In this document: piece by piece, positions 7,152 through 27,500 of the stretch | Layout of the letters: each line of letters begins with the position of its first letter | Position numbering within the stretch: position 1 is the first letter of the stretch | Translations under genes and position numbers: made by a program | NCBI GenBank assembly: GCA_030680835.1 | Contig: JAUXUD010000066.1 | Span: 1-33,700 of the forward strand | Direction: 5' to 3' | Origin: Bacteroidota bacterium | GTDB taxonomy: Bacteria > Bacteroidota > Bacteroidia > UKL13-3 | Length of the DNA: 33,700 nucleotides | Notes under the pieces: generated by a model | Databases searched by the model: none | What the model saw: only the letters and a program-made list of their open reading frames with translations | What the model was told of the DNA's origin: nothing

Positions 7152-10100
7152 TTACTCCTTAACAAGTTTCAGCACCATCATTTCTTCTCCCCCGGTAATC
7201 AGTATGAAATAGATACCGTGCTGCAGTGATTCCAGGTTATCGAGTTTAATAAGATTTCTTCCAGCCTGACATAAATGGTTCTGAGATAAAAGCGTTTTTC
7301 CCTGCAAATCCATGATTTCAATAATCACCTGGGTAGCTGAAGTCATGTCGGCTTTTAATATTGCCTGCGATTCAAACGGATTGGGATAAACAATGCTTCC
7401 ATTGCTTAATGCATCATTCGAATAAATACTGATTAGCTTCGAATAACTAAAAAGAGCGTTGGCATCAATCATTTTAAGTCTGTAAAAAAGCCGGGTGGTG
7501 TTGCCTCTGAATGCAAGTTTATCAATGAAATCATAAGACAGTATTTTGTTAGCATTGCCTGCTGCTTTCACCGTGCCTGCAACTTCAAAATTCTCTGCAT
7601 CCATTGACCTTTCTACAATAAATGCTTTGCTGTTTATTTCCGAGGCAGTTAACCAGTTCAGCACAGCATCATGATCAATCTTGCTCCCTTTTAAGTAAAG
7701 CAATTCAACGGGCATGGGAGCTGTATTTTCTGTTCCTGTAAATAATGAAAATGAATTCAGGGTGGGTGAACTCAAAATATTTTTAGAGGTGTCAATTGTA
7801 GACGTTGTTATTAACCCGTTTATCCAACTGTTATTATATTGTTTTTTTGCAATAATCAGGTTCGATTCATTGGCTGTATTGCCCAACCATTTTGTTCTGT
7901 AATATATTTTAATGGTGTAATTGAAAGCACCAATCGAATCCGCAGAAACATCATCATAAAAGTACATATATTTCAGTGCTGTGGTATCTCCAATGTGTTT
8001 AGGCAAAACTCCGGAATAGCGTTTGTACCTGATTGCAGAAGGAGGTGTACTGGCAAGACTCCAGTTTATTTTTGCCACAGTATCATATGCAAAAACAAAT
8101 ACCTGCAATCCGCCATTTGCCGATATTGCCTGTGCAGGTGTGGCTGGTATTGCAATGGCATTGGGTGCGGTGGAAACAGGTGTAAATTCATAAGCGCCAA
8201 GATCAACCGGGCCAGTTCGAATTTCCATACTTCGCGAACTGTCATTTATGTCTTTATGGATCCAGCCTGAGGGTGTTCCTCTTCCATTAATCGCCCAGCC
8301 TGCACTGTCGCTTATTGAAGGGGCCAGATTAGAAGTATCGCTAATAAAAGGAGGCCGGTACGAAACCGAATTCATTTCATATCCTGAAACAGAACGCCAT
8401 ACATTCAGGTTCGCATAAAGCGGACCACTTGCCAACCATTGCCAGTATACCAGGTTGGATCCTGCCGAATAAAGATTGTTGTAATCTGTTTGAACGCCAG
8501 ATGAAAGGGGTGCGCTGGCCCATGTCATTGCAGAACCGGTTCCTGTATTGGATAAAATGTTATTGCGTATTAGCACATTGGTACAATTCTGCTGGTCCAT
8601 GGAAAGCGCCGCGCTCTTAGAGTTTATTGTATTGTGAAAGAACCTGATATTTGAACTTACCGAGCCCAGTGAACAAGTGCCGAACTTCAGCAACATTTCA
8701 TTATTGTAAATATCCATGTAATGGTTATCATAAACAAATGAGGTTCTTACCTGCGCATTTCCCACTGCGATGAACCTGTTGTTAAATATCTTTATCCGGT
8801 TTGTCTGATTGCCTGCATTATTTGAAAACACCATATTTACCACATCAACAATCCCGCCCGTGGTAATGCGATTACCGCTGAATTCAAACGCGGAATCACA
8901 ACGCTGGAAGTTAAACCACACGTTATTATAATTGCCATTACATTTGAATTCATTGTTCCGGATCTTGAAATTAATGGTACTGTTCGTGAGGTATAAGGGA
9001 CTATAAAATGCATTCTGAACCGTATTGCTATCGAATACGCTGTTTCTGATTCTTGTGCCATTAACAACAGGTACCAGCCAGATGCCATAGTAACTCCCCG
9101 TAAACAGGCATTTTCGGATAGCAATGTCCGACATATCTGCATCAGATTTAAGCGTGGCGCTTCCTGCAACTCCCGTAACCGGTGCACTGATTTTACAGTT
9201 GTAAAACGTATCGGCAGCAATAAACCCAGCGGTTAAAACTGCAATTCCATACATCGACTCCTGGCTTATGGTAACATTTCTGAAGCTGATGTTAGAGGCT
9301 TCAAGTCGGAGTGTGATGTTTCCGGTGCTTGTAATTCTTACCGAGTCGCGGTTATTATTCAGTGATCTGAACACAATAGGATTGCTTACTGATGAACCGT
9401 TAACCGGTAACAATCTTAAACTGTCATTGTATACCCCGGCCTTTATGTTAAAATATACAGGCCCTGAAATTCCAACATCATTGAGTGCATTCACTGCATT
9501 TCTGATTGTTGTAAAATCTGATGGAGCTATGCCAACAGTATAAATACCATTCAGGGGCAAACCAATCGATCGGGTAATGGTATCATTCAGCTTATTTGCA
9601 TCGCTTGTTCCGTTTGGATTTTGGCTGTATACTTTTAGAATATGAATACCTGTTGCAGGAAGATTCAGTTGGTTGCTTCCACTAAAAGATAATGTTATGG
9701 TATCGCAGGGATTCAATGTGCCCATCCAACTCATATTTACGGCTGCACCGCTGTTTACTTTATAGGATAGTGTGAATGAACTCACAGCATTCGAACCGGT
9801 ATTCCTTACCCTGGCAACCACATTTTGCAAGCCGGCCGACATTGGATAAACAGGGGTTAGAAGCATTTCAACACTTAGATCATTATTGAGTTGTGGAACT
9901 TCATCTGCTCCAATGGTTGGTAATGCCGACCTTTGCTGTCCATCAACATCATATTGAATAAAAGGAAAGCTCATTCCCTTTCTGCAATTATCAAAGATAT
10001 GAAGGTTTGTATCGTTCAAAAATCCCGGAAGGTCGAATCTTGAATTAGAATTGAATCCTCCCGCTCCTCTGAAATTTGTACTGTTATAATTGCTGTCAAT

Positions 10101-13100
10101 TTTTACAAGAATGTGATCAGAAGTATCAGCCCGGTAAAAAATATTATAATCCATGGTATCAGCCATACTTGCAGAAGCCATATAAAGGGGCAAACCCGGG
10201 GAGCTCGTATTCACTGCAAAAAGGTTATTGCAAACTGTTAGACCCGAATCAGAGAACAGGTACATTCCCCCATAATCCGGTCCGAGTGTAGAATGGGTAT
10301 TGCTGATACTATTATTAACGATATACCAGTATTTACTGTTTGTTATAATTGCCCCCAAGGCATATCCATAACGCTGGCCACCCCCAATCATGTTATTGGT
10401 AAAATGTCCTTTCGAATTGGCCAGATTGATACAGGCATTGAGCACCACGCCCCGGTAACCATAATTATAAACCCGGTTTCCATTAATTACCAATGGGTGT
10501 TCATTTGTATGATTCTTTAAGCCGTATAGATAAATTCCGTCATTGGTTTGATTGGCTGATGAGGGTACCACCTTGTTATATTCAATCCTCAAACCATTTT
10601 GATAGGAATAAAGATAAATACCTGCCGCATGGGAATGCATAATATTGTTGTTCCTGATTTTATTAAGCAATGCGATGCTACCAAAATTTGAACTGTTATC
10701 AGAAACAATGCCCATATAACCGTTATAGATTGTGTTTGAATCAATTTCAAGACTATCGACCCGTGCATAGCCTGTATTGTAACTTATTTCAGACCCGCCA
10801 ATCAGAATGCCCAGGCATGTCATTGCAGGATAAACAGGAACTGTGATATTGCAGCTTTTTACTTTGCATGCGTGCGCACCCTGTGCAATAAAAACGCCGA
10901 TTCCGGAATTGGAATTCGTAGCAACAATTGAGAAATTTCTTATTGTTATATATTTCGCAGACAACTTTATCACAGCGGGTGATGCAGAAGCATTGTAAGA
11001 AATGATTCTGTTTGCTTTATTGATGCCGTCAAATGTAATCGTATTAGTGTGTGATGACCCGGGTATGGGCCCGCTAATATTAACTTGTTCATTGTATGTT
11101 CCCGGTGCAACCAGGAATGTAACCGGGCCGCTTACCCCATAATGTAAGGCATCGGCAGCCAAACTGAAATTCGCATAATTTGCCCCCGTACCGCCTATGG
11201 TATAAATCCCGTTCAGGGGTGCAGTGAGGGTTGTTCTTATTGTATCGTTTAATACATTGGAATCAGCTGACCAATTGGGGCCGGAAGTAAATGCTCTCAG
11301 GTAATTTGAATGAATAAGTGATACCTGCTGGACTCCGGTAAATAGAACCGCTAATGTATCACAGGCATTCATATTTGTGTAGACTGTTTGTGTAACTGCA
11401 GCATTGTTATTTAGCTTATACCCGGCATCGAATGGGTAAACCGAATTGTTGCCAATATTTTTAACAATTATTTCTACATCCTGACTGCCTGTTGTTATGG
11501 GGGCCAGTGGCGTCACAAACTTAATAACGCTTATGTCATTTCCCAATCGTATAACCTGATCAGCACCCACATGAGGTGTAGTGGAATAAGGTTCGCCATC
11601 TGCATCATACGTTGCTGTATACGTGAGATCCACTCCTGTAGAAGCGCATCCATCCTGAAGATGAAGATTACTGTCATTCTGAATAAAAGATGAAAGCAGA
11701 TTAAAGGATGAATCACCACCGGCATTGGCTGCTTTATAGTTACTGGCAAAATAATAGGTGCCCGTGCGGTACAACATTACCGTGCCCGCCTTGTTATAGT
11801 AAATATTATAATTGATTACATTGCCGGAAAGCGTGGTTGCAACATGTAGTGGTATTGCGGTACTGGATGCATGGGTAATAGCGAATATATTATTCTTGAT
11901 AAAGGACGTTCCGGTTGGGCTGTAAAAATACAGTCCTTGCCCTCCTGATGCCTGATTGATATTAATGGTATTGTGATATATTTCATATGCGCCTGTCTGA
12001 CCACTGCCATTATAAATGTTGAATCCATAATTATTTCCCGACCGCATATTCATCACCATATTCGAATGTATTTTTGTCGGATTGATATTTGAAGCTGATA
12101 TGTTTCCTAAAAGATTAGCATATCCGCCGATAAATTTGTTTCCAATAATTCGATGTGAAGCATTCCCTGAAAAATGATTGAAGCAATAATACATATACAA
12201 TGCATTATTCGAGCTCAATGGGTCCATACTAACCGTATTGAACATGAAATCGATCCCATTTTGCACATACGTGATTTGAATACCATTATAGTGCGCATTG
12301 AGAAAACGGTTGCCTCTTATTTTTATATCCCTGTTTCTTGCATTCGACTGTGTGTTTGGGCCCTGCATATAAAAACCAAAATAGCCTCCGACGATAATAT
12401 TTGAATCGATACGCAATGAGTCGGCCCAGGTAACCCCCAGTCCATGACCCGATGCATTGGGATTTACAGTAATCCCATAGCTAAGAAAAGTGCTGTTTGT
12501 ATTGGGAAGACTGATGATACAGTTATTCACAAAACATCCCGTGCCGGCATTTGATGATGTGCTCCCGATAATTCCAACGCCCGAATAAACCGTATTTGAT
12601 CCTGCGGTATTTGTAATACTGAGATTCCGGATTCCCACATATTTGCAAGTACTGAGTGCAAAAACCGCTGTACCCGGAAGTAAACCTGTAATGATTCGGG
12701 AAGAAGCATTCCCATTACCGCCATCAAAAGTTACCGTATTTATGTTTGATGTGCCTGGCACAAAGGGAACTTCAATCATCGTGCTGATGTTATAGGTACC
12801 GGATGATACAAAAAATTCAACCGGACCTGAAACTCCAAATGGTGTTGCGTTGCTTGGACCGGCATCAGGACGGCTGTTGGAACCGGTTAGATAAAAAATG
12901 GCCGATTGAAAATCCCTGAAATTTGTTGTACTGGCAGGAGCTGCCGGATTAATGGTGTATGCTCCATTAAGCTGTATGGCATAACATGGAGATATATGCC
13001 TCATCAAAATGAAGAAAAGAAATGCAAACTTGCCAATGGCAATCCCGCTCTCACTCCCGAAGAGAAGCTTGTTTTTATGGATAAGAATTTTTAATCGCGT

Positions 13101-13115
13101 GTAAATGTGCATCAT
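7152..13115 (-). CDS. Giant secreted beta-helix protein with three repeat modules and T9SS domain
   Basis: A 1987-residue exported protein. The signal peptide has an extended N-region and a core GKFAFLFFILMRHISPCYA (about 28-46). Three modules begin at about residues 49, 632 and 1185, each with LNG-x-YT[IV]G-like strands, an SGPV-x-F...G-x-Y start and then many Asn-rich parallel beta-helix rungs of the pattern I-x-N-N-x-I/F (right-handed beta-helix, pectate-lyase-like fold). Modules 1 and 2 are each followed by a CARDB-like Ig domain (DISVIKFVTPLAP..., DLSVEMLLTPVYP...). The C-terminal about 75 residues (VYPNPFESQAIL ... GKTLL ... LQHGIYFILI ... LKLVKE) form a T9SS type A sorting domain. The likely role is a surface adhesin or polysaccharide-binding protein; no catalytic residues can be named. 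ATG 13112 is an alternative start. Confidence 0.85.
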   Translation of the reverse strand: MMHIYTRLKILIHKNKLLFGSESGIAIGKFAFLFFILMRHISPCYAIQLNGAYTINPAAPASTTNFRDFQSAIFYLTGSNSRPDAGPSNATPFGVSGPVEFFVSSGTYNISTMIEVPFVPGTSNINTVTFDGGNGNASSRIITGLLPGTAVFALSTCKYVGIRNLSITNTAGSNTVYSGVGIIGSTSSNAGTGCFVNNCIISLPNTNSTFLSYGITVNPNASGHGLGVTWADSLRIDSNIIVGGYFGFYMQGPNTQSNARNRDIKIRGNRFLNAHYNGIQITYVQNGIDFMFNTVSMDPLSSNNALYMYYCFNHFSGNASHRIIGNKFIGGYANLLGNISASNINPTKIHSNMVMNMRSGNNYGFNIYNGSGQTGAYEIYHNTININQASGGQGLYFYSPTGTSFIKNNIFAITHASSTAIPLHVATTLSGNVINYNIYYNKAGTVMLYRTGTYYFASNYKAANAGGDSSFNLLSSFIQNDSNLHLQDGCASTGVDLTYTATYDADGEPYSTTPHVGADQVIRLGNDISVIKFVTPLAPITTGSQDVEIIVKNIGNNSVYPFDAGYKLNNNAAVTQTVYTNMNACDTLAVLFTGVQQVSLIHSNYLRAFTSGPNWSADSNVLNDTIRTTLTAPLNGIYTIGGTGANYANFSLAADALHYGVSGPVTFLVAPGTYNEQVNISGPIPGSSHTNTITFDGINKANRIISYNASASPAVIKLSAKYITIRNFSIVATNSNSGIGVFIAQGAHACKVKSCNITVPVYPAMTCLGILIGGSEISYNTGYARVDSLEIDSNTIYNGYMGIVSDNSSNFGSIALLNKIRNNNIMHSHAAGIYLYSYQNGLRIEYNKVVPSSANQTNDGIYLYGLKNHTNEHPLVINGNRVYNYGYRGVVLNACINLANSKGHFTNNMIGGGQRYGYALGAIITNSKYWYIVNNSISNTHSTLGPDYGGMYLFSDSGLTVCNNLFAVNTSSPGLPLYMASASMADTMDYNIFYRADTSDHILVKIDSNYNSTNFRGAGGFNSNSRFDLPGFLNDTNLHIFDNCRKGMSFPFIQYDVDGQQRSALPTIGADEVPQLNNDLSVEMLLTPVYPMSAGLQNVVARVRNTGSNAVSSFTLSYKVNSGAAVNMSWMGTLNPCDTITLSFSGSNQLNLPATGIHILKVYSQNPNGTSDANKLNDTITRSIGLPLNGIYTVGIAPSDFTTIRNAVNALNDVGISGPVYFNIKAGVYNDSLRLLPVNGSSVSNPIVFRSLNNNRDSVRITSTGNITLRLEASNISFRNVTISQESMYGIAVLTAGFIAADTFYNCKISAPVTGVAGSATLKSDADMSDIAIRKCLFTGSYYGIWLVPVVNGTRIRNSVFDSNTVQNAFYSPLYLTNSTINFKIRNNEFKCNGNYNNVWFNFQRCDSAFEFSGNRITTGGIVDVVNMVFSNNAGNQTNRIKIFNNRFIAVGNAQVRTSFVYDNHYMDIYNNEMLLKFGTCSLGSVSSNIRFFHNTINSKSAALSMDQQNCTNVLIRNNILSNTGTGSAMTWASAPLSSGVQTDYNNLYSAGSNLVYWQWLASGPLYANLNVWRSVSGYEMNSVSYRPPFISDTSNLAPSISDSAGWAINGRGTPSGWIHKDINDSSRSMEIRTGPVDLGAYEFTPVSTAPNAIAIPATPAQAISANGGLQVFVFAYDTVAKINWSLASTPPSAIRYKRYSGVLPKHIGDTTALKYMYFYDDVSADSIGAFNYTIKIYYRTKWLGNTANESNLIIAKKQYNNSWINGLITTSTIDTSKNILSSPTLNSFSLFTGTENTAPMPVELLYLKGSKIDHDAVLNWLTASEINSKAFIVERSMDAENFEVAGTVKAAGNANKILSYDFIDKLAFRGNTTRLFYRLKMIDANALFSYSKLISIYSNDALSNGSIVYPNPFESQAILKADMTSATQVIIEIMDLQGKTLLSQNHLCQAGRNLIKLDNLESLQHGIYFILITGGEEMMVLKLVKE

Positions 13116-15926: not shown

Positions 15927-16388
15927 TTAGTTTTCAGCAAAAGTGCGGATATATAGTACTACACTCCATCTTTCAATATCAGACAATTCATCTTTAAATG
16001 AAGGCATGGGTTTTCTTCCTTCTGTTGCTTTCCAGAACAATTCCCCGTCTGATGCCTGCTGATATTTATGAGAGGAAAAATCACCGATGGGAACATCAAT
16101 TTTAGAGGCTTTAACACCATCGCCTCTTCCTTTTTTACCATGGCATGATTTGCATTGAGTGAGCCATATTTCTTTACCGGTTGCCAAAATACCTTCCTGG
16201 GGTTTTATTGGATTGGATAAAGCAGTAACTTTCTCCGGACATACCCATGGCTTGCTGGTATTTTTAGCATTTGCCTTAGTAGCGGCATTGCCATTAACGG
16301 GTTCCTGAAGACTTGCTCCATAAAGGAGAAAACCACCGACAGTAACTGCTGTCAGAAGTGTGAGTACATTTTTAATTGACTTTTTCAT
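15927..16388 (-). CDS. Mono-haem cytochrome c, last gene of the FeS-NrfD operon
   Basis: A 153-residue c-type cytochrome held at the periplasmic side by an N-terminal hydrophobic segment (about residues 8-26) that may be an uncleaved anchor or a signal peptide. The haem-binding motif is C79-K-S-C82-H83, followed by GKKGRGDG, and Met128 in KPMPSF is the probable sixth ligand. An extra cysteine lies at residue 50 (PWVCPEK). It follows the Ig-like membrane protein by 24 bp and shares its strand, so it is probably the electron acceptor from, or a subunit of, the complex encoded upstream. The domain size is normal for class I cytochromes c. Confidence 0.88.
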   Translation of the reverse strand: MKKSIKNVLTLLTAVTVGGFLLYGASLQEPVNGNAATKANAKNTSKPWVCPEKVTALSNPIKPQEGILATGKEIWLTQCKSCHGKKGRGDGVKASKIDVPIGDFSSHKYQQASDGELFWKATEGRKPMPSFKDELSDIERWSVVLYIRTFAEN

Positions 16389-16412
16389 AACTTTAAATTT
16401 AAATGGTACGTA

Positions 16413-16994
16413 TTATTTATTTGACTGTAGGTCTATTTTTTTATAAGATTGATCTTGCATTCCAATTTTCCGGATTTTATAAAATACCTGATACACGATA
16501 TATGCCATAACGCCCCAAATTGCGATAATGATTAAATTGGAAATTAGCATAAGGGTGAGGGCTACATTGGATCTTGGTGCCCATAGCGCATTTTTTTTAG
16601 CCACGTCCTCCGGACTTATTTTAATGCCCCAGGGCGAATTTGCTTCAGCAGCAATCGATTCATCATCTTCAAGTCTTACCACTACAACAACATTTCCTTT
16701 GTCGTCGGCAGGAACTGATAATGGATAATTTACAGTGGCAACTCCCTTTTCATCTGTGCTTACAGATGTTCCAATCGGCAGCATTCCGAAAAACCGTTTT
16801 ACAAAAAATGCTACGCTTACATCTTTGGCAGGTTCTGTTTCGCTGTTCATCACAACAGCTTTACAAACTTTAACCGTATCCTGTATTATAAAACTAAGTT
16901 TTATGGAAGGATATTGTGCACATGTAAAAAGTGGTAACAGCAATGCGGAGCTTAAGAGAATCTCCGGTATCATATATTTTAAATACTTGTTCAT
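16413..16994 (-). CDS. Exported Ig-like protein with C-terminal membrane anchor
   Basis: A 193-residue protein I do not recognise as a named family. An N-terminal signal peptide (about 1-26, ending FTCAQ) is followed by a beta-sandwich-like region of about 110 residues. There, KDVSVAFFVKRFFGMLPIG, TDEKGVATVNYPL and GNVVVVVRLEDDESI look like Ig-type strands. One transmembrane helix (about 143-170, LTLMLISNLIIIAIWGVMAYIV) and a short basic cytoplasmic tail end the protein. Its ATG overlaps the stop of the NrfD gene by 4 bp (ATGA), so the two are translationally coupled and the product is probably a dedicated subunit of the same membrane complex. No metal or haem motif is present. Confidence 0.75.
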   Translation of the reverse strand: MNKYLKYMIPEILLSSALLLPLFTCAQYPSIKLSFIIQDTVKVCKAVVMNSETEPAKDVSVAFFVKRFFGMLPIGTSVSTDEKGVATVNYPLSVPADDKGNVVVVVRLEDDESIAAEANSPWGIKISPEDVAKKNALWAPRSNVALTLMLISNLIIIAIWGVMAYIVYQVFYKIRKIGMQDQSYKKIDLQSNK

Positions 16995-18460
16995 ATTTTT
17001 TTCTTGTTAAGGGGTTCATGAATTTCCTGAATATCCACACCTTCTCCCTCGGCCACCTGCCAGATTGAAATGATGGGTACAAACCTTGAAAACATTGTGA
17101 TGATAAGAAGCAATGCGGCAAACGTTGCAGTAACAATAGTCATCTCTACCATGCTGGGTGAATATTGGGTCCATGATTCGGGAACATCCTGAATCGGTAG
17201 ATAAGGATGCGACAAACCGGGTATTACGATGAGATAACGTTTGAACCAGGCGGCAACAACAGCCAGCAATGCGATTATTGTTAGCGGCAAAGGTTTACGC
17301 ATCGAGCGCAGCATGGGCAGGAACGAAGGAACGATAATTCCAAAAACTGCAACCATCCAATATAAGGGTGCTGTATCCTGTGTAAATAAATCAAGCAAAT
17401 GATTTGCATGAAGTCCGCTCATTTTATAGGATGGAACGAGGTATTCATTTACATTGGTGTAAAAATAACACAAGGAAAGGAATACGAGCATTTTCCCCAT
17501 ATAATCAAAATGTTTATCCGTGAGATATTTTTCAAAATGATATAATTTTCTGAAAGCATATACCGCCACAATCATTGCTGCAGAGGCTAGCAGGCAGGCA
17601 CCCGAAATAAAGTAAACCCCGAAATTGGTACTGTCCCATTCTGCACGGAGTGTGGTTGCAAAAAGCCATGCATCTACTGTTTGAATGGCAACTGCAAGGG
17701 GTATAATCAGTATGGCCAATATCTTGATGCTCTTTTTCAATAATTTCCATTGCTCAGGGGTTCCTTTCCATCCAAACGATAGTTTGCTGTATAACCATTT
17801 TTGCCATACAGGTTTATCTTCCAAACGCTCCTCACATATTTTCATACAGGGCAGGATGGGTACAAGCAGCATCAGTAAGCTTACCGCAACATAAGTGGCA
17901 ATTACAATCACATCCCATGTTACCGGCGATTGAATCTTGGCATAAAGTATTAAATAATGCAAGCGGTCGGGGCGGCCCATAGCCACCATGATACATAATC
18001 CTGCCATAATAATGGAGGCCAGTGCAATGAGTTCTGCTATTCGCGATAAGGGCCGGTACCATTCAAACTTTATCAGTTTTAAAATAGCCGACATCAATGC
18101 ACCAACCATGCTCAGGGCAACATAAAATACAAAGGTGGAAATATATACACCCCACATTGTATAATCACGTATGGAAATGGTTTCATACTTACTCCGGGTT
18201 TCCTGCAGATAATAAGCATATATACCTGCCAGAGTTACTGCTACCAGAAAACCGATCCATATTTTTCCGTAGGTACCGATTTTACGTATCGGGTGTAACA
18301 GGTCTTCCTCCATTTGCATATACTTTTGTGCGAGCCTGTTTTTATTTTCAATGAATTTGAGAAATTCTGCTTTCCACTTTCTCTCATTCACCTCCATCAA
18401 TTCCGTATCCTGTTCCTGAATCCCGGTGAGTTGTTCCTCTGTTGTATTTTGCATATTCAT
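16991..18460 (-). CDS. NrfD/PsrC-like quinone-interacting membrane subunit
   Basis: A 489-residue polytopic membrane protein of the NrfD/PsrC family, which exchanges electrons between the quinone pool and a partner iron-sulfur protein. A hydrophilic N-terminal extension of about 60 residues precedes roughly nine to ten hydrophobic helices. The second half repeats the layout with LPSFLPMLRSMRKPLPLTIIALLAVV and a last helix VEMTIVTATFAALLLIITMF. It starts 2 bp after the ferredoxin gene ends (ATG at 18460; M3 at 18454 is an alternative) and overlaps the next gene by 4 bp. The neighbours indicate a quinol-oxidising or quinone-reducing module. The family assignment rests on topology and context rather than a single signature motif. 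Confidence 0.82.
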   Translation of the reverse strand: MNMQNTTEEQLTGIQEQDTELMEVNERKWKAEFLKFIENKNRLAQKYMQMEEDLLHPIRKIGTYGKIWIGFLVAVTLAGIYAYYLQETRSKYETISIRDYTMWGVYISTFVFYVALSMVGALMSAILKLIKFEWYRPLSRIAELIALASIIMAGLCIMVAMGRPDRLHYLILYAKIQSPVTWDVIVIATYVAVSLLMLLVPILPCMKICEERLEDKPVWQKWLYSKLSFGWKGTPEQWKLLKKSIKILAILIIPLAVAIQTVDAWLFATTLRAEWDSTNFGVYFISGACLLASAAMIVAVYAFRKLYHFEKYLTDKHFDYMGKMLVFLSLCYFYTNVNEYLVPSYKMSGLHANHLLDLFTQDTAPLYWMVAVFGIIVPSFLPMLRSMRKPLPLTIIALLAVVAAWFKRYLIVIPGLSHPYLPIQDVPESWTQYSPSMVEMTIVTATFAALLLIITMFSRFVPIISIWQVAEGEGVDIQEIHEPLNKKKI

Positions 18461-18462
18461 GA

Positions 18463-19407
18463 TTATTCTTCAGTATTATGTTTAACAGTTGCTTCTTCAA
18501 ATGGGAAAATGCGTTTGTCCTGTGGCAAATAATATACTCTGGGTTCTGTACCCAGTGTTTCAAACTGCCTGTAACCCGCACGGCTTCCAATGAGTTCGGA
18601 GAGCTGGAAAACTTCGTCACCGTTGGTTACGGTATCTTCATTCTCGTCGCCCACAAACATCACTCCGTTCGGACATTCGGTTACGCATACAGGCAGTTTT
18701 CCCTGGGCGAGTTCATCGGGGCACATATCGCATTTGGAAACTGTACCCACTGCGTTTGAGCGTGCGGCTCCGCATATTCCGATATCATTTTTATGTTCTT
18801 CGTTATAGGCAACCTGTTTGGGTTTCCCGAAATTAAATACCCTTGCCGAATACGGACAGGCGGCCATGCAGAATTTGCATCCCACACACCGTTCCGGATC
18901 AACTCCAACCAAACCATCGGTTCTTTTAAAAGTAGCATCAACCGGACATACCTTTATACAAGGCGGATTGTCGCAATGATAACAATGTGTAGGAAACCAA
19001 TAAGGCCTGGCCAGTTTCGAATCCTGCATTCGTTTCACTTTTAAATATTCGATGGGAGGCAATGTATTATGCATCTTCTGACAAGCCTCAACGCAAGTCC
19101 TTTTATTCTCGCATCGTGCCAGATCAATAACCATAACAAATTTTTTCCCGGGAACCCCTTTTCTTAAGATACTTTCGGGTGACTCAGGAACATTTTTTAC
19201 TTTCTCCTGATCCACTTCAATCAATTTTCCATCAATGGTAAGTGCTTTTACTTTTTCACCCGAAGGCTCATCTGTTTTACTGAAAAGATTCACAGCCCCT
19301 CCTGCCAATAATGCAACACCGCCCGTCAGCATTCCGAGTTTAAGCATTTCCCTCCGGGTTGATTTAAGTTCTTTTGGATGGGTATTGTTTTCATTAACTT
19401 CTTTCAT
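18463..19407 (-). CDS. Tat-exported multi-cluster [Fe-S] ferredoxin subunit
   Basis: A 314-residue iron-sulfur protein of the DmsB/NrfC/PsrB type with a twin-arginine signal (STRREMLKLG, Arg18-Arg19) and hydrophobic segment (about 25-41), so it should act on the periplasmic side. Cluster motifs are C99-x5-C105-x3-C109; C142-x2-C145-x4-C150-x3-C154-P; C174-x2-C177-x2-C180-x3-C184-P; and C226-x2-C229-x11-C241-x3-C245-P. The first motif lacks one of the usual four cysteines, so 15 of the expected 16 ligands are present. It is the first gene of the operon with NrfD, the Ig-like protein and cytochrome c, and should relay electrons between the membrane subunit and haem c. No molybdopterin enzyme is next to it. 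Confidence 0.9.
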   Translation of the reverse strand: MKEVNENNTHPKELKSTRREMLKLGMLTGGVALLAGGAVNLFSKTDEPSGEKVKALTIDGKLIEVDQEKVKNVPESPESILRKGVPGKKFVMVIDLARCENKRTCVEACQKMHNTLPPIEYLKVKRMQDSKLARPYWFPTHCYHCDNPPCIKVCPVDATFKRTDGLVGVDPERCVGCKFCMAACPYSARVFNFGKPKQVAYNEEHKNDIGICGAARSNAVGTVSKCDMCPDELAQGKLPVCVTECPNGVMFVGDENEDTVTNGDEVFQLSELIGSRAGYRQFETLGTEPRVYYLPQDKRIFPFEEATVKHNTEE

Positions 19408-19666
19408 AATACTATTTCCTGTTATTGATTATTATTGAAATTTACTTTTATCAACATCCTCATTTGCGGGTTCAAAATAAAAGGCGAAATAGAGCCCAGC
19501 CAATGACTTAGGAAAGTTTTTATAAAGACAGTTGCCTGTTAAAATATAGACATAAGCCTTTTTAATTCGGGCGTTAAAAAGAGTAGATTCTACTCCGTTA
19601 TTTCATTTTAAATGAAAATTGAATTTGAATTTGATAAAAAATAAATAGGATTAATTAAATAATAAA
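19408..19666. promoter_or_regulatory. Upstream region of the FeS-NrfD operon, with two palindromes
   Basis: No gene is seen here. Two perfect inverted repeats stand close together: GAGTAGA-T-TCTACTC at 19581-19595 and TTTCATTT-T-AAATGAAA at 19601-19617. They lie about 175-210 bp upstream of the ATG at 19407 and could be operator sites, for example for the adjacent Crp/Fnr protein, or local hairpins. A weak promoter candidate on the minus strand is TTG-N21-TATTTTG nearer the gene. No clear TTGAT-N4-ATCAA box is found. Confidence 0.3.
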
Positions 19667-19700
19667 AGAGGCCTTATCCATTTGAATGCATAAGGCCTTT
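19667..19700 (-). terminator. Rho-independent terminator of the Crp/Fnr gene
   Basis: Stem AGGCCTTAT (19669-19677) pairs with ATAAGGCCT (19690-19698) perfectly over 9 bp, extendable by a G-T and an A-T pair, with a 12-nt loop. Reading on the minus strand, it is followed by a T-rich run (complement of 19661-19667, AATAAAA). It lies 31 bp after the stop codon of the regulator gene and separates it from the FeS-NrfD operon. Confidence 0.75.
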
Positions 19701-19730
19701 AAAGAAAATATTTTTAATAATTGTTTGGGA

Positions 19731-20450
19731 TCAGAGGTACTGCGAAATTATTTTTTCCAGTCTTGATTTATCAAGTATTTTTATACATTGACCGTGAACT
19801 TCAAGCAAATTATCCTCTTCAAATTCCGAAAACTGTTTTACAATCCGGTCTGTACTGATGCCTGCTATAGAAGCAATTTCCTCGCGCGAAAGTTTAATGG
19901 CAAGGGTTGCTTCATCTCCATCCAAACCAAACTCTTCAGTAAGATGCAGAATGGCATCGGCTGTTTTTTCACGTACATTCATTTCAGCCATGTTTCGTAA
20001 CTTTTTTTCTACCATACCCAGTTTGCCAACATACTTCCACAATACCTGGTGGTATAATTCCTGGTTCTCCTGTAGTATTTGTCCAAAAACATCTTTAGAA
20101 ACAATATAAATACAGGAGTCCTCAATGGTAGTGGCTGAGAGGTTATACTTTGTTTTTTGTCCGCAACCCCGGTAACCCAAAATATCACCATCTTTTGCAA
20201 AAGAAACAATCATGTCGTGGGAGTGAATTCCTTCCATCCAGAGCTTCAGTTTACCCTTATAAATAATGTATATAAATGAAGCAGGTTGAAAGTCATAAAA
20301 AATAACATTATTTTTTCTGTAGATATGCCGGGTTGCACTTTCCTGAAGCATCTTTTTTTGATTGGAAGTGCAATAATTGTCTAATATGGGAATTGTTCTG
20401 ATAAAATCTTCTTCAACTTCCTGAATACTTTGTAAGGTCTGGGTTTTCAT
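19731..20450 (-). CDS. Crp/Fnr-family transcriptional regulator
   Basis: A 239-residue regulator with an N-terminal cyclic-nucleotide-binding-like sensor domain (about 20-130; IYRKNNVIFYDFQPASFIYIIYKGKLKLWM and FAKDGDILGYRG are the beta-roll strands), a dimer helix (about 135-165) and a C-terminal Crp-type winged helix (LSREEIASIAGISTDRIVKQFSEFEEDNLL, about 188-217). There is no N-terminal cysteine cluster of the FNR type; the four cysteines are scattered, so direct oxygen sensing through a [4Fe-4S] cluster is unlikely and the signal is unknown. It lies upstream of, and on the same strand as, the FeS-NrfD-cytochrome operon and is the natural candidate to control it, though a terminator separates them. 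Confidence 0.88.
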   Translation of the reverse strand: MKTQTLQSIQEVEEDFIRTIPILDNYCTSNQKKMLQESATRHIYRKNNVIFYDFQPASFIYIIYKGKLKLWMEGIHSHDMIVSFAKDGDILGYRGCGQKTKYNLSATTIEDSCIYIVSKDVFGQILQENQELYHQVLWKYVGKLGMVEKKLRNMAEMNVREKTADAILHLTEEFGLDGDEATLAIKLSREEIASIAGISTDRIVKQFSEFEEDNLLEVHGQCIKILDKSRLEKIISQYL

Positions 20451-20792: not shown

Positions 20793-23700
20793 TTACTCTA
20801 TAACAAACCGCTTCACCTGTTGGAAATGGGTGTCCGAAATTCTCAGAAAATAAATTCCCGATACCCGCGGAAGTTCTATTTCCATATCGTTTTTGCCCGG
20901 TTTAAAACCGGCCGAAAGCGTATAAACGATATCCCCTAAGGCATTGAATATTTGAATGCTATAATTACCAGACTTTATAATGCCGGCTGAGACAATGAAA
21001 TTGCCATTATTGGGGTTCGGAAATATTTGCAAAGTCTGAAACTGCGTCATTTCATTCATGCCGGTGCTTATTACAGTCACATTCATAAGATTTGAATCGT
21101 TGCAATTTTGCTGATTGGATCCTTCAACTTTTATACTTCCTGACCCACTATTTGTCCATGTAACATTTACAGAAGCTGTTCCCTGGCCTGCGTTTATCGT
21201 CCCGTTTGTGATTGTCCATACATAGCTTACATTCACTTGCGACAGAACTGAATAGGTATAAGATGTATCAGTCCGCAAAGCGGTTTTCTGGCCTGTTATT
21301 ACAATTGCATTGGGTCTTTGAATCACATCGAATATTACCGTATCGGATGCCAGGCAGCCTCCTGTTGGGGATGGAGCCGTATAACCGGAAAGTGCAGGAT
21401 TAAACACCACAGTATTGCTAAGCGGGTAAGTTACAATAAACTTGTATGTGATGATATTCGTGTCTATTTTAACCCCGGTTGCCTGCGGGTTGAAGGCATA
21501 ATAATTCTGGCCCGCATTGGGTTTAAAAATACCATTCCCCAACCAAAGTTCATTGATAGCCATTGCTCCCCCATTAGGGGTGTATAGCTGTGTGCCGGGT
21601 GTTATGTTAAAGGTACCTGCATAGTCACAGAACTGTCTGTGCGGACCTGCATTAATAACAGGTCGTGGGAATATGGCAATAATTAATGAATCCTTTACCT
21701 TGCATCCATCCGAATCACTAACCGTTACGTTTACAAAGTTACCTGCCGCGTTCGAAGGCGGTGATGCCGGTTGGTTCAGCAAATTGGCTGTGATTACCTG
21801 ATTGCCACTGATGGCTGATGGATTTAACGGATAGGTCCATGCCCAGGTAATCTGACCCGGTTTATTGGTTGATATAATAACAGGTAGTGTTATCATTCCT
21901 GTATTTTTGCAAATAGATATATCTGCAGGATGGTTAATGATGGGTGAGGGTTTTACCAATACGCTTACGGTATCTGTATTACTACAGGTTACTCCTCCAT
22001 AAGTAATAAATCCTTTAACCTGGTAGCTGGTATTTACGCCGGGTGCGATGGTTAAAGAAGCAGTTCGTGCCAATATAATAGCCGGATCAATTACCGGTAG
22101 TTGCCTCCATTGAAAACTGTCAATTGCTGCGGTGGTTCCATTTGCAATAAGGCTAAGCAGGGCATTGTTTGAACACAAACTCCTGTCAGAACCTGCTGAT
22201 AACTGAACCGCCGGGTTCACATAAACCATGGCTATATCATAGTGAATACAGCCCATGCTATCCATTTTTTGAACCACATATCTTCCACTGTCTTTAGCAA
22301 TTATTTTCTGCGAAAAAATATTTTCCATTGCAGGCAGAGCAGGTGATTTAAACCAATGCCAGTTAATAACGGAACCATTATTATTTCCTGCATCAAGTGT
22401 ATCTGACATGCCGTAACATAAACGCATGTTTGTTGTCATTTCATGTGGAAGAGGAGAACCGGTATTGATGGTAAATATTGTTGAATCACTGCATCCGTTT
22501 GAATCGGTAATAACTACTTTATAATGCATGTTGCCTGCTGCCGAAGCATTAATAATAATATTTGAATCTGGATTTAGTGCTCTGATAATTGTGCTTGAAC
22601 TGAGATCCCCCGCATAAAAAGAATAACGGTATCCCAAACCAAAAGGAACTCCCCCACTCCCATGAGCCTGAAGTTTTACCGATTGTCCAAAACAAACTGA
22701 GGTATCACCAATGCTCGCCTGAACCGGGCTTGTAATCAGGATTGAATCATAAATATTATCATTCGCACATCCATTAGGTGCAGGAGGAGGCATTGTTCTC
22801 ATCCGCAATTTAATTTGATGATATCCACCTTGCATGAAAGTGTGATTAGAGACTGAACTTCCATTATAAGTGATATAGTTATTACTATGTGGCGCTGTTT
22901 CCACCTGGAATTGGGTATAGGAACTATCCACGGCAACTCCGTTGTATAGTGAATAAGCAAAATCATATTTTCTACAACCCTTATTCGTTTTTGTAATAGT
23001 AGCCAATGGAATTCGCCTTACCAATATTGAAAATGAACGGCTTGTGCGCCCCGGCAAGGGACAGGCTCTATCTTTTGCATTGACCACAAAATAATAAGGC
23101 AGGTTTTGAGCCATACTGGCCGGAGGGGTCCAGCAAAAACGCATACTATCCAGGCGTGGACCTGTTGTAATGCGTGTTGAAGCATTATAGGCTTTCACAA
23201 AAGTTGCCCCGTTGCTGACGAGATTTGATGGTGCATTCCAGCTTAAATCTGTTGTATCCGTTGATGCAGCATTATCCCATGCGGTAACATAAAAACACAA
23301 TTGCTGGCCCGCACAAACTGAATATGCAAAATTGGGTTGCGGAGATGATAAAGTTGCGTTTGCATCATAGGTACGATGTATAGGAGGGTTATTGTTTGGA
23401 CATAGGATGCTGTAAAACTGAATATCGCGTCGTGTCACTCCCATCAAAGTGGGCACACCACCCATGTTCTTCCATTGTTTTACTTCAATAACCATAGTAG
23501 CAATAAAAAAACCTAAGGGTCTAAAGCGTATATCTCCAGTAATAGGATCAAAAGATATTCCTGCCGGAGGGAGAAGAGGAACGCCCTGAATGGGTGCTCC
23601 TAAATAAGGAATCGGCACCGTAGGACTATAAGGTGAAACATAGGGTGCTGTAACTCCATGATAAATAAGTGCGGACCTGAATGCATAACTCAATGAATCA

Positions 23701-24386
23701 CCATCGGGGTCAAGAGCTCCCGGATTATAATAATAATCCTGGCCCGCACATACAACGGCAACGGGCGCATTTGTGAAAATTGGGGCTGAATTGCATGGCG
23801 TAATACAACGGTTAATGGTGGCTTCGGTATAGAAGTTTAATGTACCCGGATTAAGCAATGAAATGATGGCAGCATTACGGCAACAGGATGAATACCCAAT
23901 GCTTACCATACAGCAACCTGATGGCAGTGAATTTAAATTAATCTCCCCCTTAAAAACATACACCTCAATCCCCGGAGAAAAAGAACCCGGTGTACGGGTA
24001 CCACAATTGCTGCAAATTGATTTTGAGGTATCGCACAATTGAACGATATCAAAACTACTTATAGCTGTTATAAGGGTTAAGGTTTGAGTTCCAAAAACTG
24101 TGTTTGAACATGTACCTGAAGCTCCAATTTTGCTTACCTGAACCACACAGTTTGAGCTCAATCCACCGGGACAACTTGCACACAACTGGGCCTCTGAACA
24201 ATCCCGGTATACCTTAAGCGTTATGTTATAAACCCCGGGTGTACTTGTGCACTCGTATGATATATCCGCACCTGCTACATGAGATGCAACAGCATAATTT
24301 GAGTAGCCATAAAAAATAATTAGCAGGATAGCATTCAGAAGGATATTGATACTTCTGATGGCTCTGTTGGTACAATTCCTTTTCAT
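20793..24386 (-). CDS. Large secreted Ig/PKD-type T9SS protein, tandem paralog 1
   Basis: A 1197-residue exported protein. A signal peptide (about 10-35, ending YAVAS) precedes a cysteine-rich N-terminal domain beginning SHVAGADISYECTSTPGVYNITLKVYRDC, a module common at the start of Bacteroidota T9SS or gliding-associated proteins. A cadherin-like segment (DPDGDSLSYAF, about 225-240), then several Ig/PKD-like domains, then a T9SS type A sorting domain (LQIFPNPNNGNFIVSAG ... SGIYFLRIS ... KRFVIE) follow. It is the tandem copy of the gene at 24569, with long identical or near-identical stretches. It carries about 170 extra residues (roughly 21945-22455), two Ig-like units, and lacks a different 100-residue segment present in the other copy. 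Surface adhesion is plausible; no enzyme motif is seen. Confidence 0.85.
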   Translation of the reverse strand: MKRNCTNRAIRSINILLNAILLIIFYGYSNYAVASHVAGADISYECTSTPGVYNITLKVYRDCSEAQLCASCPGGLSSNCVVQVSKIGASGTCSNTVFGTQTLTLITAISSFDIVQLCDTSKSICSNCGTRTPGSFSPGIEVYVFKGEINLNSLPSGCCMVSIGYSSCCRNAAIISLLNPGTLNFYTEATINRCITPCNSAPIFTNAPVAVVCAGQDYYYNPGALDPDGDSLSYAFRSALIYHGVTAPYVSPYSPTVPIPYLGAPIQGVPLLPPAGISFDPITGDIRFRPLGFFIATMVIEVKQWKNMGGVPTLMGVTRRDIQFYSILCPNNNPPIHRTYDANATLSSPQPNFAYSVCAGQQLCFYVTAWDNAASTDTTDLSWNAPSNLVSNGATFVKAYNASTRITTGPRLDSMRFCWTPPASMAQNLPYYFVVNAKDRACPLPGRTSRSFSILVRRIPLATITKTNKGCRKYDFAYSLYNGVAVDSSYTQFQVETAPHSNNYITYNGSSVSNHTFMQGGYHQIKLRMRTMPPPAPNGCANDNIYDSILITSPVQASIGDTSVCFGQSVKLQAHGSGGVPFGLGYRYSFYAGDLSSSTIIRALNPDSNIIINASAAGNMHYKVVITDSNGCSDSTIFTINTGSPLPHEMTTNMRLCYGMSDTLDAGNNNGSVINWHWFKSPALPAMENIFSQKIIAKDSGRYVVQKMDSMGCIHYDIAMVYVNPAVQLSAGSDRSLCSNNALLSLIANGTTAAIDSFQWRQLPVIDPAIILARTASLTIAPGVNTSYQVKGFITYGGVTCSNTDTVSVLVKPSPIINHPADISICKNTGMITLPVIISTNKPGQITWAWTYPLNPSAISGNQVITANLLNQPASPPSNAAGNFVNVTVSDSDGCKVKDSLIIAIFPRPVINAGPHRQFCDYAGTFNITPGTQLYTPNGGAMAINELWLGNGIFKPNAGQNYYAFNPQATGVKIDTNIITYKFIVTYPLSNTVVFNPALSGYTAPSPTGGCLASDTVIFDVIQRPNAIVITGQKTALRTDTSYTYSVLSQVNVSYVWTITNGTINAGQGTASVNVTWTNSGSGSIKVEGSNQQNCNDSNLMNVTVISTGMNEMTQFQTLQIFPNPNNGNFIVSAGIIKSGNYSIQIFNALGDIVYTLSAGFKPGKNDMEIELPRVSGIYFLRISDTHFQQVKRFVIE

Positions 24387-24568: not shown

Positions 24569-27500
24569 TTAATCTATAACAAATCTTTTAACAAGCTGAG
24601 ATTTGTGATCAGAAATTCTGAGGAAATAAACCCCGGATGCCCGCGGAAGTTTGATTTCCATATCATTTTTGCCAGATTTAAAATCTGCTGTAATCATATG
24701 AACGATATCACCTAAGGCATTAAATATTTGAACACTATAATTACCCGCCTTTAAGATGCCTACTGAAATAACGAAATTGCCATTATTGGGATTCGGGAAT
24801 ATTTGCAAAGCCTGAAGCTGCGTCAATTCATTGATTCCGGTACTCCCGATGAACACATTCATTTGGTTCAGGTCGCTGCAATTTTGCAGATTGGTCACTT
24901 CAACTTTTATACTTCCTGCCCCACTATTTGTCCAGGTTACATGCACCGAAGAAGTTCCCTGGCCTGTGTTTATCGTCCCATTGATGAGGGTCCACATATA
25001 GCTGACATTGGCCTGCGAAAGGACTGAATAGGTATAGGAAGTATCGGTTCGCAAAGCGGTTTTCTGGCCTGTTATTACAACCGCATCCGGACTTTCTTTT
25101 ACCTCGATAAAGGTTGTATCTGCTACCCTGCAGGTTGTACTTGTATCGGCATAAACCAGTACATATTGTTTGGTATATCTTTCAATGATTGGATGTTTGG
25201 GTACAAACACCCTACCCCTGCTAATGGCCGGACGGTATGCCTCATCGGGTGCTCCAATATACCAATAACTAAATAATGGATTATAAGAAGTGGTTGACCT
25301 GCCTACCATATAAGCATCCAAATATATACTATCACTGAGTTTACAAACCGGATCAGCCAAACCAGCTTCCAGTTTTGGTGTTTCAATCACATCAAAAATA
25401 ACGGTATCTGATGCCTGGCAGCCTCCTGTTGGAGATGGTGCTGTATAACCCGATAGTACAGGATTAAACACCACAGTATTGCTTAGTGGAAAGTTTACAA
25501 TAAATTTATACGTAATAATATTGGTATCTTTTCTTACCCCGGGTGCCTGCGGATTGAATGCATAATAATTTTGACCCGCATTGGGTTTAAAAATACCATT
25601 CCCAAACCAAAGTTCATTAGCTGCCATTACCCCTCCATTGGGTGTATACAATTGTGTGCCCGGAGTTATATTAAAGTTGCCTGCATAGTCACAGAAATGC
25701 CTGCGCGGACCTGCATTAATAATCGGTTTCGGAAATATGGCAATGATTAATGAATCCTTTACACTACAGCCGGACGAATCACTTACCGTTACATTTATAA
25801 AGTTGCCTGCCGCGTTCGAAGGCGGCGTTGCCGGTTGGTTCAGTAAATTGGCTGCGATAACCTGATTGCCATTGATGGCTGATGGATTTAAGGGATAAGT
25901 CCAGACCCATGTTACCTGGCCGGGTTTATTGGTTGATACGATATTGGGCAAGGCAATCATTCCTGAATTATAGCAGGCAGAAATCAGAGCAGGATGAATT
26001 ATTTCAGGCGATGCAGTTACTCCTGATGTTATTGTAAATGCAGCCGAATCGGTACATCCATTCAAATCAGTGATGACAACTTTATAATTGTGAATGCCTG
26101 CAGTTGCCGGAGTAAGGGTAATATTCGAATCGGGATTTAGTGCCCTGATAATAGTGGTTGAACTGATATCTCCGGAATAAAAGGTATAACGGTATCCCAA
26201 ACCAAAAGGAACTCCCCAACTTCCATGAGCCTGAAGTTTAACAGATTTTCCAAAACAAACAGAAGTATCCTGCATACTTACTTTAACTGGCATGGTAACC
26301 AATATTGAATCAAAAATATTGTCGTTTGGACAACCATTGGGCATAGGTGGTGTAACAGTGGTCAATCGCAATTTTATACGATGCATGCCTCCTTGTAAAA
26401 ACCTGTGATTGCTTACTGCTGTATTGTTATAGCTTGTAAAAACATTGCTGCCCGGGGCGGTTTCAATCTGGAATTGAGCATATGCGTTATTCAGTGAAAC
26501 ACTATTTGTTAATGAATAACCAAAATCATAGTATCCACAATTACGGTTTGTTTTTGTTATAAATGCCGTTGGAATTCTCCGAACGATGATTGAAAATGAA
26601 TGGCTTGTGCGCCCGGATACCGGACAGGCTCTGTCTCTTGCATTGACCACAAAATAATAAGGCAGGTTTTGAGCCGCACTGGTTGGTGGGGTCCAGCAAA
26701 AGCGCATACTGTCAAGGCGTGGCCCAAGTGTGCTGCGTGTTGAATTATTATATGCTTTTACAAAAGTTGCACCGTTGCTGACTAGATATGATGGTGCATT
26801 CCAGCTTATATCTGTTGTATCTGTGGTTGAAGCATTATCCCATGCCCCAACCGTAAAACACAACTGCTGGCCGGCACAAACTGAGTAGGCATAATTGGGT
26901 TGCGGAGTGGTTAAGGTTCCGCTTGCATCATAGGTTCGTAATACAGGAGGATTGTTGGCAGCACAAGTGATGCTGTAAAACTGAATATCGCGCCTGTTAA
27001 TGCCCACCAAAGTAGGAACTCCGGCAATGTTTTTCCATTGTTTTACTTCAATTACCAGATTAGATACATAAGTGCCCTGTGGCCTGAAACGCAAATCACC
27101 AGTAATGGCATCGAGGGTAATGCATAAAGGAGGTAGTGCCGGAGGACATGTAATTGGGAAACCTACATAAGAAAATGGAAGATTCGGACTATATGGACTC
27201 ACATAGGGCGCCGGTGTATTTGCGCCTGTTAATGAAGCTCCGAAAGCATAACTTAATGAATCCCCATCGGGATCAATTGCACCTATATTATAAGTAAAAT
27301 CCTGGCCTGCACATGCAACAACAACAGGCTCATTGGTAAATGATGGAGTAGAATTACATGGTGTTACGCAACGGTTTAATATTGCTTCGGTATAATAATT
27401 TAAACTCGACGAGTTAACTAAAACAGTATTAGAGGAATTGCGGCAGCATTCACCAAAACCCAAACTCACCATGCAACAACTGGCGGGTATTGCATTTAAG

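Follow-up and report, generated by a model that had tools for sequence, protein, structure and literature searches.

A four-gene operon on a Bacteroidota contig

We analysed a DNA stretch of 33,700 nucleotides (the window), which is the whole of contig C101 (JAUXUD010000066.1) of the 4.3-Mb, 104-contig genome of a Bacteroidota bacterium (GCA_030680835.1). Four closely packed genes on its minus strand encode an iron–sulphur (FeS) protein exported by the twin-arginine translocation (Tat) route, an NrfD-type integral membrane protein, an immunoglobulin (Ig)-like single-pass membrane protein and a mono-haem cytochrome c. As argued below, the probable product of these genes is a compact quinol:cytochrome c oxidoreductase that descends from the ActB2–ActC half of Alternative Complex III (ACIII). 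The features of the operon are as follows:

18463..19407, minus strand: FeS subunit, Tat-exported, 314 amino acids, four Cys groups (open reading frame, Pfam, NCBIfam, alignment)
19081..19113, minus strand: Cys group I of the FeS subunit, C99-x5-C105-x3-C109 (alignment of homologues)
16991..18460, minus strand: NrfD-type integral membrane protein, 489 amino acids, ActC-like, putative quinone site (Pfam, PDB match, tree)
18107..18109, minus strand: Met118 of the NrfD protein, in the place of the ActC quinone-site His139 (alignment)
16413..16994, minus strand: Ig-like single-pass membrane protein, 193 amino acids, with export signal, periplasmic beta-sandwich and C-terminal membrane helix
16617..16916, minus strand: Ig-type beta-sandwich, residues 27-126 (structure model)
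16419..16559, minus strand: long C-terminal helix including the membrane span, residues 146-192 of the Ig-like protein (structure model)
15927..16388, minus strand: exported mono-haem cytochrome c, 153 amino acids (open reading frame, Pfam, alignment)
16140..16154, minus strand: haem-binding motif CKSCH, cytochrome residues 79-83

An earlier, sequence-only reading of the window had proposed the four genes as one operon, and a check of the open reading frames returned exactly the same coordinates and intergenic distances (2, −4 and 24 bp between the FeS, NrfD, Ig-like and cytochrome genes). Pfam recognised 4Fe-4S domains, NrfD and mono-haem cytochrome c among the encoded proteins. The order FeS-NrfD-Ig-cytochrome was found again in many Bacteroidota loci, and the layout therefore goes beyond chance. 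The window operon encodes no ActA, ActB1 domain, ActD, ActF, DsrM, DsrK, DsrJ, NrfA or molybdenum (Mo) catalytic subunit.

The Ig-like gene is tied to the FeS and NrfD genes

Relatives were collected by an NrfD-pattern scan of named genome contigs, which confirmed at least 474 loci, of which the best 80 were kept. Together with the window and contigs C8 and C20 of the same genome these gave 94 NrfD frames (>300 amino acids; frames of 300 or fewer were dropped). FeS frames of 240 amino acids or fewer were also dropped, and 88 FeS rows were counted. Throughout, L- and G-numbers label surveyed loci and genomes, and C-numbers label contigs of the window's genome. L018 and L033 are one gene. L115 was kept though its record is titled Bifidobacterium breve, and it groups among the Flavobacteriaceae rows; its locus is Flavobacteriaceae-like, and the assembly is probably mislabelled or mis-binned.

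The FeS gene lies directly upstream of NrfD in 89 of the 94 cases, and the remaining 5 begin at the locus edge. Directly downstream of NrfD is the Ig gene in 80 of the 94. In nine more the Ig segment is fused to the cytochrome, and in two (L080 and L087; frames of 741 amino acids and of 653 amino acids cut by the contig end) it is fused to NrfD. Only three neighbourhoods have no visible Ig, and all three are cut by contig ends. The proposed tie of the Ig-like protein to the FeS/NrfD set thus held for 91 of the 94 homologous NrfDs. Two sorts of apparent counter-example were rejected: the seemingly Ig-less Bacteroidales-type loci encode cytochromes of 287–327 amino acids that include an Ig segment and a membrane span, and L080 holds its Ig segment within the NrfD frame.

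Because NrfD patterns taken from Ig-linked copies favour linkage, the Ig-like protein was also searched alone. Among 98 genomes including the window's own, this query gave 29 rows (28 genes) in 17 genomes, all adjoining an NrfD gene; in L032 the order differs, with the Ig gene between the FeS and NrfD matches rather than after NrfD. Among 395 genomes of the phylum, all 14 strong rows (4 in the own genome and 10 in nine others) adjoin NrfD, and three weak rows (G303, G318 and G485; E 2e-5 to 3e-4) lie away from it, the G318 row being matched also by an Ig model built here. The Ig-like protein was therefore not found to occur mostly outside this gene context (28 of 28 genes near NrfD in the 98 genomes). 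Counting up to seven genes away on the same strand, 80 of the 94 neighbourhoods have a cytochrome gene; at C8 (L035) there are cytochrome genes nearby, the closest being on the opposite strand.

The NrfD protein branches outside the ActC group

The NrfD protein matches PF03916 with 82.1 bits (cut-off 25.8), and its closest relative in the PDB is ActC of ACIII (E 6.7e-43). We placed it in a tree of 92 of the 94 NrfDs (>380 amino acids) and 10 reference rows, with L080 and L087 cut at 500 residues. The tree was made by a quick method with the root drawn at the midpoint, and the ActF rows and L076_7031 sit on very long branches. The window family is not nested in the ActC group, from which two ACIII-like intermediates with a split ActB separate it. 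Support was 99 for the ActC rows, 99 for the two intermediates, 99 for three copies with all the group I Cys residues and 100 for the nine cytochrome–Ig fusions.

The intermediates, G240 (L144) and G468 (L145), have an ActA-like multihaem gene and an ActB split into a protein of 719–818 amino acids and an FeS protein of 227–228 amino acids; neither gave an Ig match. This branching order suggests that an ACIII with a single ActB gave rise to a form with a split ActB, from which the Mo-like protein was lost and to which the Ig-like protein was added. ACIII-like clusters with a two-gene ActB, as in G240 and G468, can be regarded as living intermediates.

Excerpts of an NrfD survey list His139, Asp169, Asp253 and Ser164 as quinone-site residues of ActC, with the Ser absent only from ActF (PMC8076601). 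In the 94 NrfDs, the His139 site is Leu in 83, His in 3, Tyr in 3, Phe in 2, Met in 1 (the window), Ser in 1 and a gap in 1. Ser164 is retained in all 94, and Asp169 in 93. The three His rows are exactly the three copies with all the group I Cys residues in their FeS subunit. In the tree as drawn, the three Tyr rows diverge ahead of the His clade, and His139 may therefore have been lost twice, few such events having been sampled. With the His139 and Asp253 sites lost, quinone binding can be called only putative; the site is plausible but would have been rebuilt.

An altered Cys site in the FeS subunit

The FeS subunit (P0004) carries a twin-arginine motif (RREML) near its start and resembles DsrO as well as the B2 domain at the C-terminus of ActB. 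In group I, Lys102 of the window protein takes the position of the second Cys in the usual CxxCxxCxxxC, and this Cys is missing in 85 of the 88 homologues. Group III has its four Cys residues in all 88, and in group IV a Ser replaces the second Cys in 8. ActB shows a different pattern: here group III is one Cys short (CxxTxxC), both in all five full-length ActB rows and in the ActB of the window's genome. In NarH-type enzymes, the group I cluster lies at the distal end of the wire. By analogy, the group I site of the window family is predicted to hold a [3Fe-4S] or otherwise altered cluster, at the opposite end of the wire from ActB, where, according to excerpts of the structural description, the single [3Fe-4S] cluster adjoins the quinol site (PMC5928083). 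Taken with the loss of the ActC quinone-site His, the group I Cys loss would point to an altered mechanism.

A small Tat-type protein of ∼80–125 amino acids, sharing with the FeS N-terminus a motif like LTxDGKLVEVD, is encoded in 15 loci, mostly just before the FeS gene. Examples are L036 (104 amino acids, before the left-hand FeS gene of C20), L098:8774-9025, L105:8767-9021 and L096:8775-9017; the one tested gave no Pfam match.

The Ig-like protein as a proposed cytochrome mount

The sequence-only reading had singled out the 193-residue Ig-like protein (P0002) as the novel component, and profile searches bear this out, in that no Pfam or NCBIfam model scored above its cut-off. Big_1 (PF02369; cut-off 34.9) gave 14.3 bits for P0002 and 29.2 bits for the two-domain paralogue on C8; certain other members of the family also have two Ig domains (∼300 amino acids). 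A structure model was built from 63 sequences (57 of 79 Ig stretches, 5 fused stretches and P0002), with a mean predicted local distance difference test score (pLDDT) of 86 and a predicted template modelling score (pTM) of 0.61. It has a beta-sandwich at residues 27-126 and a helix at 146-192. Fold matches were generic, with the C-terminal domain of Nir2 at Z 10.7 and domains of complement C3 and intimin at Z ∼9, and no cofactor site was recognised in the model. We therefore rejected the idea that the Ig-like protein is itself a redox protein.

A role as a mount is proposed mainly because of the natural fusions, to the cytochrome in one clade and to NrfD in L080 and L087, which sit apart in the tree. 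The Ig-like protein thus probably docks the cytochrome at the membrane. In the cytochrome, Met128 is invariant among seven aligned sequences and is likely to be the distal haem ligand.

Genes beside the module in relatives

Where cytochrome and Ig are fused, COX1 is found in seven of the nine loci. The module is followed in L079 by an E1-E2 ATPase, CcoNO and FixP, and in L110 by SCO1, COX1 and COX2. In L113:4759-16724, from a metagenome-assembled genome of Marinilabiliaceae, it is followed by genes for a molybdopterin oxidoreductase and a Fer4 protein, read as NapA and NapG respectively, and for NapB and a cytochrome c552/NrfA. A plain COX1 query matched seven loci, all of them fused; COX1 flags in three unfused rows (L048 twice, L056) came via the CcoNO query only, which contains a cytochrome domain. 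Because the fused clade precedes oxidases and reductases, the best-supported direction is from menaquinol through the FeS wire to cytochrome c. The L113 arrangement is in its own right an unusual electron feed for nitrate/nitrite reduction.

Outer-membrane genes accompany many of the other copies. In 54 of the 94 neighbourhoods (50 of the 80 unfused, none of the nine fused) a DUF5777 barrel gene lies up to seven genes away on the same strand; EB_dh proteins occur in 28 and small haem lipoproteins in 51. The set had been called minimal, a description that fits the window copy, but these 54 neighbourhoods carry a barrel gene in addition. The window copy and its nearest relative, L038, have no barrel or lipoprotein neighbours, and L039 is cut upstream. 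The haem motifs of 58 small haem proteins were CX4CH (43), CXXCH (13), CX3CH (1) and none (1). CX4CH in these small lipoproteins and the CX3CH of EB_dh lipoproteins (L035, L036 and many loci), some beside CXXCH, are unusual putative haem motifs.

It is possible, but rather unlikely, that the module is the inner-membrane step of extracellular electron transfer, feeding surface haem lipoproteins where the outer-membrane genes are present; this would extend the oxidoreductase reading rather than exclude it. A small haem-lipoprotein gene is present in 50 of the 54 barrel-bearing neighbourhoods, and hexahaem proteins with MtrC/MtrF-like domains, which phmmer detected in four loci, accompany the barrel in L098 and in L052 (from Flavobacterium fluvii). 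A strict lipobox-like pattern is enriched in the EB_dh (19/33), small haem (30/58) and YceI-like (10/19) proteins compared with cytochrome c (11/100), Ig (9/81) and barrel (2/61) proteins. This rule replaced a looser one that over-called, often landing on haem cysteines, which tells against the extracellular route, as does the lack of any of these outer-membrane genes beside the window copy. The barrel, modelled from 52 of the 54 listed stretches, has 12 strands and matches general and small porins, NanC and KdgM among them; no likeness to a large cytochrome-sheathing barrel appeared among the 50 matches listed. An MtrB-type sheath is larger than a 12-strand barrel, and the DUF5777 barrel is probably too small for one.

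In the window's own genome, contig C36 (L157:6156-9321) carries a DUF5777 barrel, haem-motif lipoproteins and a YceI-like gene, with no FeS-NrfD set on its 14.7 kb. The outer-membrane part can therefore stand alone.

Other respiratory genes of the genome

PF03916 has five matches in the genome. An ACIII cluster lies on C60, where ActB and ActC match the Flavobacterium johnsoniae ACIII chains (E 2.6e-233 and 1.6e-199) and ActA-, D-, E- and F-like genes stand in order beside them, named from gene order and sequence reading only. Three paralogues of the window set are also present, one on C8 and two on C20. A bc1 cytochrome b was not found in the genome; the control query was positive in 8 of 14 genomes. 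The three COX1 matches comprise a typical COX1, one in a CcoNO-type fusion accompanied by FixO, and a weaker one that is preceded by a mono-haem gene and is NorCB-like by sequence reading. PF02335 gave a single match just below its cut-off (23.9 against 24.1 bits).

Both PF00384 proteins of the genome carry NuoG-type 2Fe-2S/4Fe-4S domains, and their neighbours read as NuoE/NuoF-like. A comparison for canonical bc1, ACIII and molybdoenzymes, the three classes named in the sequence-only reading, thus found ACIII alone apart from these NuoG-type proteins. Two candidate roles were discarded on this basis: the set is not the cell's sole complex III-type enzyme, since ACIII is encoded elsewhere, nor is it a Mo-dependent enzyme with its catalytic gene at another site, given the NuoG-type PF00384 proteins.

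An NrfD query at 1e-30 matched 289 of the 395 phylum genomes, with most of the best values shown being ∼1e-43, in the ActC range. The subfamily itself (≤1e-117) occurs in 9 of the 394 other genomes, all nine of which have at least one further NrfD match. Therefore, the module adds to ACIII-type proteins rather than replacing them, in ∼2–3% of the sampled species.

Proposed mechanism and alternatives

In the oxidoreductase reading, the NrfD protein would oxidise menaquinol on its periplasmic face; the clusters of the FeS protein would then serve as a wire carrying the electrons to the mono-haem cytochrome, and from there they would pass to a terminal partner. The Ig-like protein would hold the cytochrome against the membrane-bound NrfD/FeS core, replacing the lost ActA/ActB1/ActE scaffold. 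The reaction may also be coupled to energy conservation; NrfD-like subunits have been proposed to move ions, according to excerpts of the NrfD survey (PMC8076601).

Several observations weigh against this reading. The link to the Ig gene is tighter than that to the cytochrome: 14 of the 94 neighbourhoods have no nearby cytochrome gene, 7 of them ending <1 kb after NrfD and 7 having room for one (including L047, L074, L091 and L111). Some copies may share a cytochrome, and our confidence was lowered because a recount gave a cytochrome gene in just 80 of the 94. No terminal partner lies beside the window copy. His139 is absent in 91 of the 94 (one a gap; Met118 in the window), and the Asp253 site is Leu or Ile in all 94 (Leu266 in the window). 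The nine cytochrome–Ig fusions form one clade, hence one event, and the two NrfD–Ig fusions could in principle be assembly errors. Finally, the four copies on which the survey patterns were built are all Ig-linked and belong to a single genome, biasing the sample towards linkage, and most of the loci come from metagenome assemblies.

Flow through the same complex in reverse, from an outside or periplasmic donor through the cytochrome to menaquinone as in Qrc, is unlikely. The altered quinone site and the ACIII already present for the forward reaction would both suit it, as would the many relatives beside outer-membrane-type haem lipoproteins and a 12-strand barrel able to take electrons in. 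Against it, the oxidase and nitrate/nitrite reductase genes that follow the fused clade need quinol electrons, and ACIII, the nearest characterised relative, oxidises quinol.

We consider it very unlikely that the set serves an unrecognised catalytic subunit, Mo-containing or other, encoded elsewhere, with the cytochrome as an accessory. FeS and NrfD pairs commonly serve Mo enzymes, the NapA-like protein stands behind the module in L113, and a cytochrome gene is not always nearby. However, L113 is the only one of the 94 NrfD neighbourhoods with a Mo subunit (phmmer, three Mo queries), and the PF00384 proteins of the genome are of NuoG type; no Mo subunit always paired with the FeS/NrfD set was found. 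The group I site of the FeS subunit is, in complex iron–sulphur molybdoenzymes, the place where the catalytic subunit docks, and it is this site that is short of one Cys in nearly all homologues. The sequence-only reading of a quinol:cytochrome c type module with no Mo subunit in the operon is supported. Least likely of all is that the NrfD protein has given up quinone binding and serves only as an ActF-like ion path or anchor, which the His139 and Asp253 losses would allow; it retains the Ser that excerpts of the survey describe as absent only from ActF (PMC8076601), as well as, in 93 of 94 copies, Asp169, and the set encodes no other quinone-binding subunit.

Returning to the oxidoreductase reading, we tentatively suggest, at somewhat less than even likelihood, a separate Bacteroidota lineage of quinol:cytochrome c oxidoreductases that is neither bc1 nor ACIII. 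An ACIII-like ancestor would have lost the Mo-like domain and the haem wire and gained an Ig-type cytochrome mount and an altered quinone site, its odd FeS cluster shifting away from the membrane to the exit end. The module would then have turned into an interchangeable electron source, supplying oxidases, surface haem lipoproteins or the reduction of nitrate/nitrite. In the literature searched we found no description of the Ig subunit, the gene set or the lineage, and no use of the term DUF5777. A limited search found no paper on a quinol-dehydrogenase-like module with haem lipoproteins and an outer-membrane barrel in Bacteroidota, the combination that the neighbourhoods above link together. 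A naturally occurring four-protein form that lacks the Mo-like domain, together with living split-ActB intermediates, would offer a test of the parts needed for quinol oxidation and energy coupling, and an unnamed protein family of many Bacteroidota genomes, the Ig-like one, gains a testable role.

Other features of the window

Two further features lie upstream of the operon:

19669..19698, minus strand: terminator-like hairpin separating the FeS and Crp genes (folding energy)
19731..20450, minus strand: Crp/Fnr-type regulator, 239 amino acids (open reading frame, Pfam, NCBIfam)

The Crp/Fnr gene was noted in the sequence-only reading and is indeed present on the strand of the operon, 323 bp upstream of the FeS gene. 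Because of this distance and the strong intervening hairpin with a U-rich tail (−16.9 kcal/mol, z −4.3), it is probably a transcription unit of its own. A consensus promoter/terminator scan (loop limit 8) did not return that hairpin, its regional counts being about those of shuffles, and a simple-pattern search of the 323-bp gap found no Crp/Fnr-like or Bacteroidetes-type promoter site. In 10 of the 94 homologous neighbourhoods a Crp-like gene stands on the same strand no more than seven genes away.

Elsewhere in the window, 7152-13115 encodes an exported protein of 1987 amino acids, and 20793-24386 and 24569-27952 encode neighbouring long exported paralogues sharing very similar stretches. 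Read from their sequences, these three proteins resemble secreted surface proteins.

Comparison with known systems

The gene set is real, conserved and, as far as searched, undescribed as a set; its kind is known from SirCD, CbcSTU and ACIII. The beta-sandwich of the Ig-like protein is common to Bacterial Ig-like group 1, intimin and macroglobulin domains and is a widespread fold. Unlike these domains, the Ig-like protein sits on a membrane helix within a redox operon and has no Pfam match above cut-off. Complex iron–sulphur molybdoenzymes differ from the window operon in having a catalytic molybdopterin subunit. In NrfBCD with NrfA, FeS and NrfD subunits pass electrons to a c-type cytochrome; the NrfC model gave only 115 bits against a cut-off of 378, and NrfA is not beside the window set. 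The best NCBIfam models were those of DsrMKJOP, with DsrO for the FeS subunit (161 bits) and DsrP for NrfD (78 bits), but both fall below their cut-offs (200 and 350 bits) and the operon has no DsrM, DsrK or DsrJ.

FeS and NrfD pairs normally serve a molybdopterin enzyme according to the sequence-only reading, but pairs without their own Mo catalytic subunit are already described in the excerpts of two sources (PMC11434368, PMC4954811). SirCD of Shewanella acts primarily for sulphite reductase and can partly substitute for CymA (PMC11434368), and CbcSTU of Geobacter is described as a menaquinol:ferricytochrome c oxidoreductase (PMC4954811). Both are quinol dehydrogenases of FeS and NrfD type directed towards c-type cytochromes, although CbcU is labelled b-type rather than NrfD-type in the latter source. 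This likeness is one of descriptions rather than sequence; the excerpts mention no Ig-like subunit, and the window cytochrome is mono-haem.

For Bacteroidetes, the NrfD survey names ActC/ActF and NhcC groups, with no group like the window family in its excerpts (PMC8076601). In excerpts on ACIII itself, the role of three of the four clusters is called elusive and the Mo-like B1 domain is without a prosthetic group (PMC5928083; see also PMC8552683). Compared with ACIII (ActABCDEF), the window operon is without the pentahaem ActA, ActB1, ActD and ActF and has the extra Ig-like subunit. P0004 consists of FeS domains only, with no fused Mo-like B1 domain, its odd Cys site is in group I rather than group III as in ActB, and the quinone-site His is lost. 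The features in common with ACIII are an NrfD protein whose best PDB match is ActC (though it groups apart from ActC in the tree), an FeS subunit like the B2 domain of ActB, a mono-haem cytochrome and the absence of a Mo cofactor.

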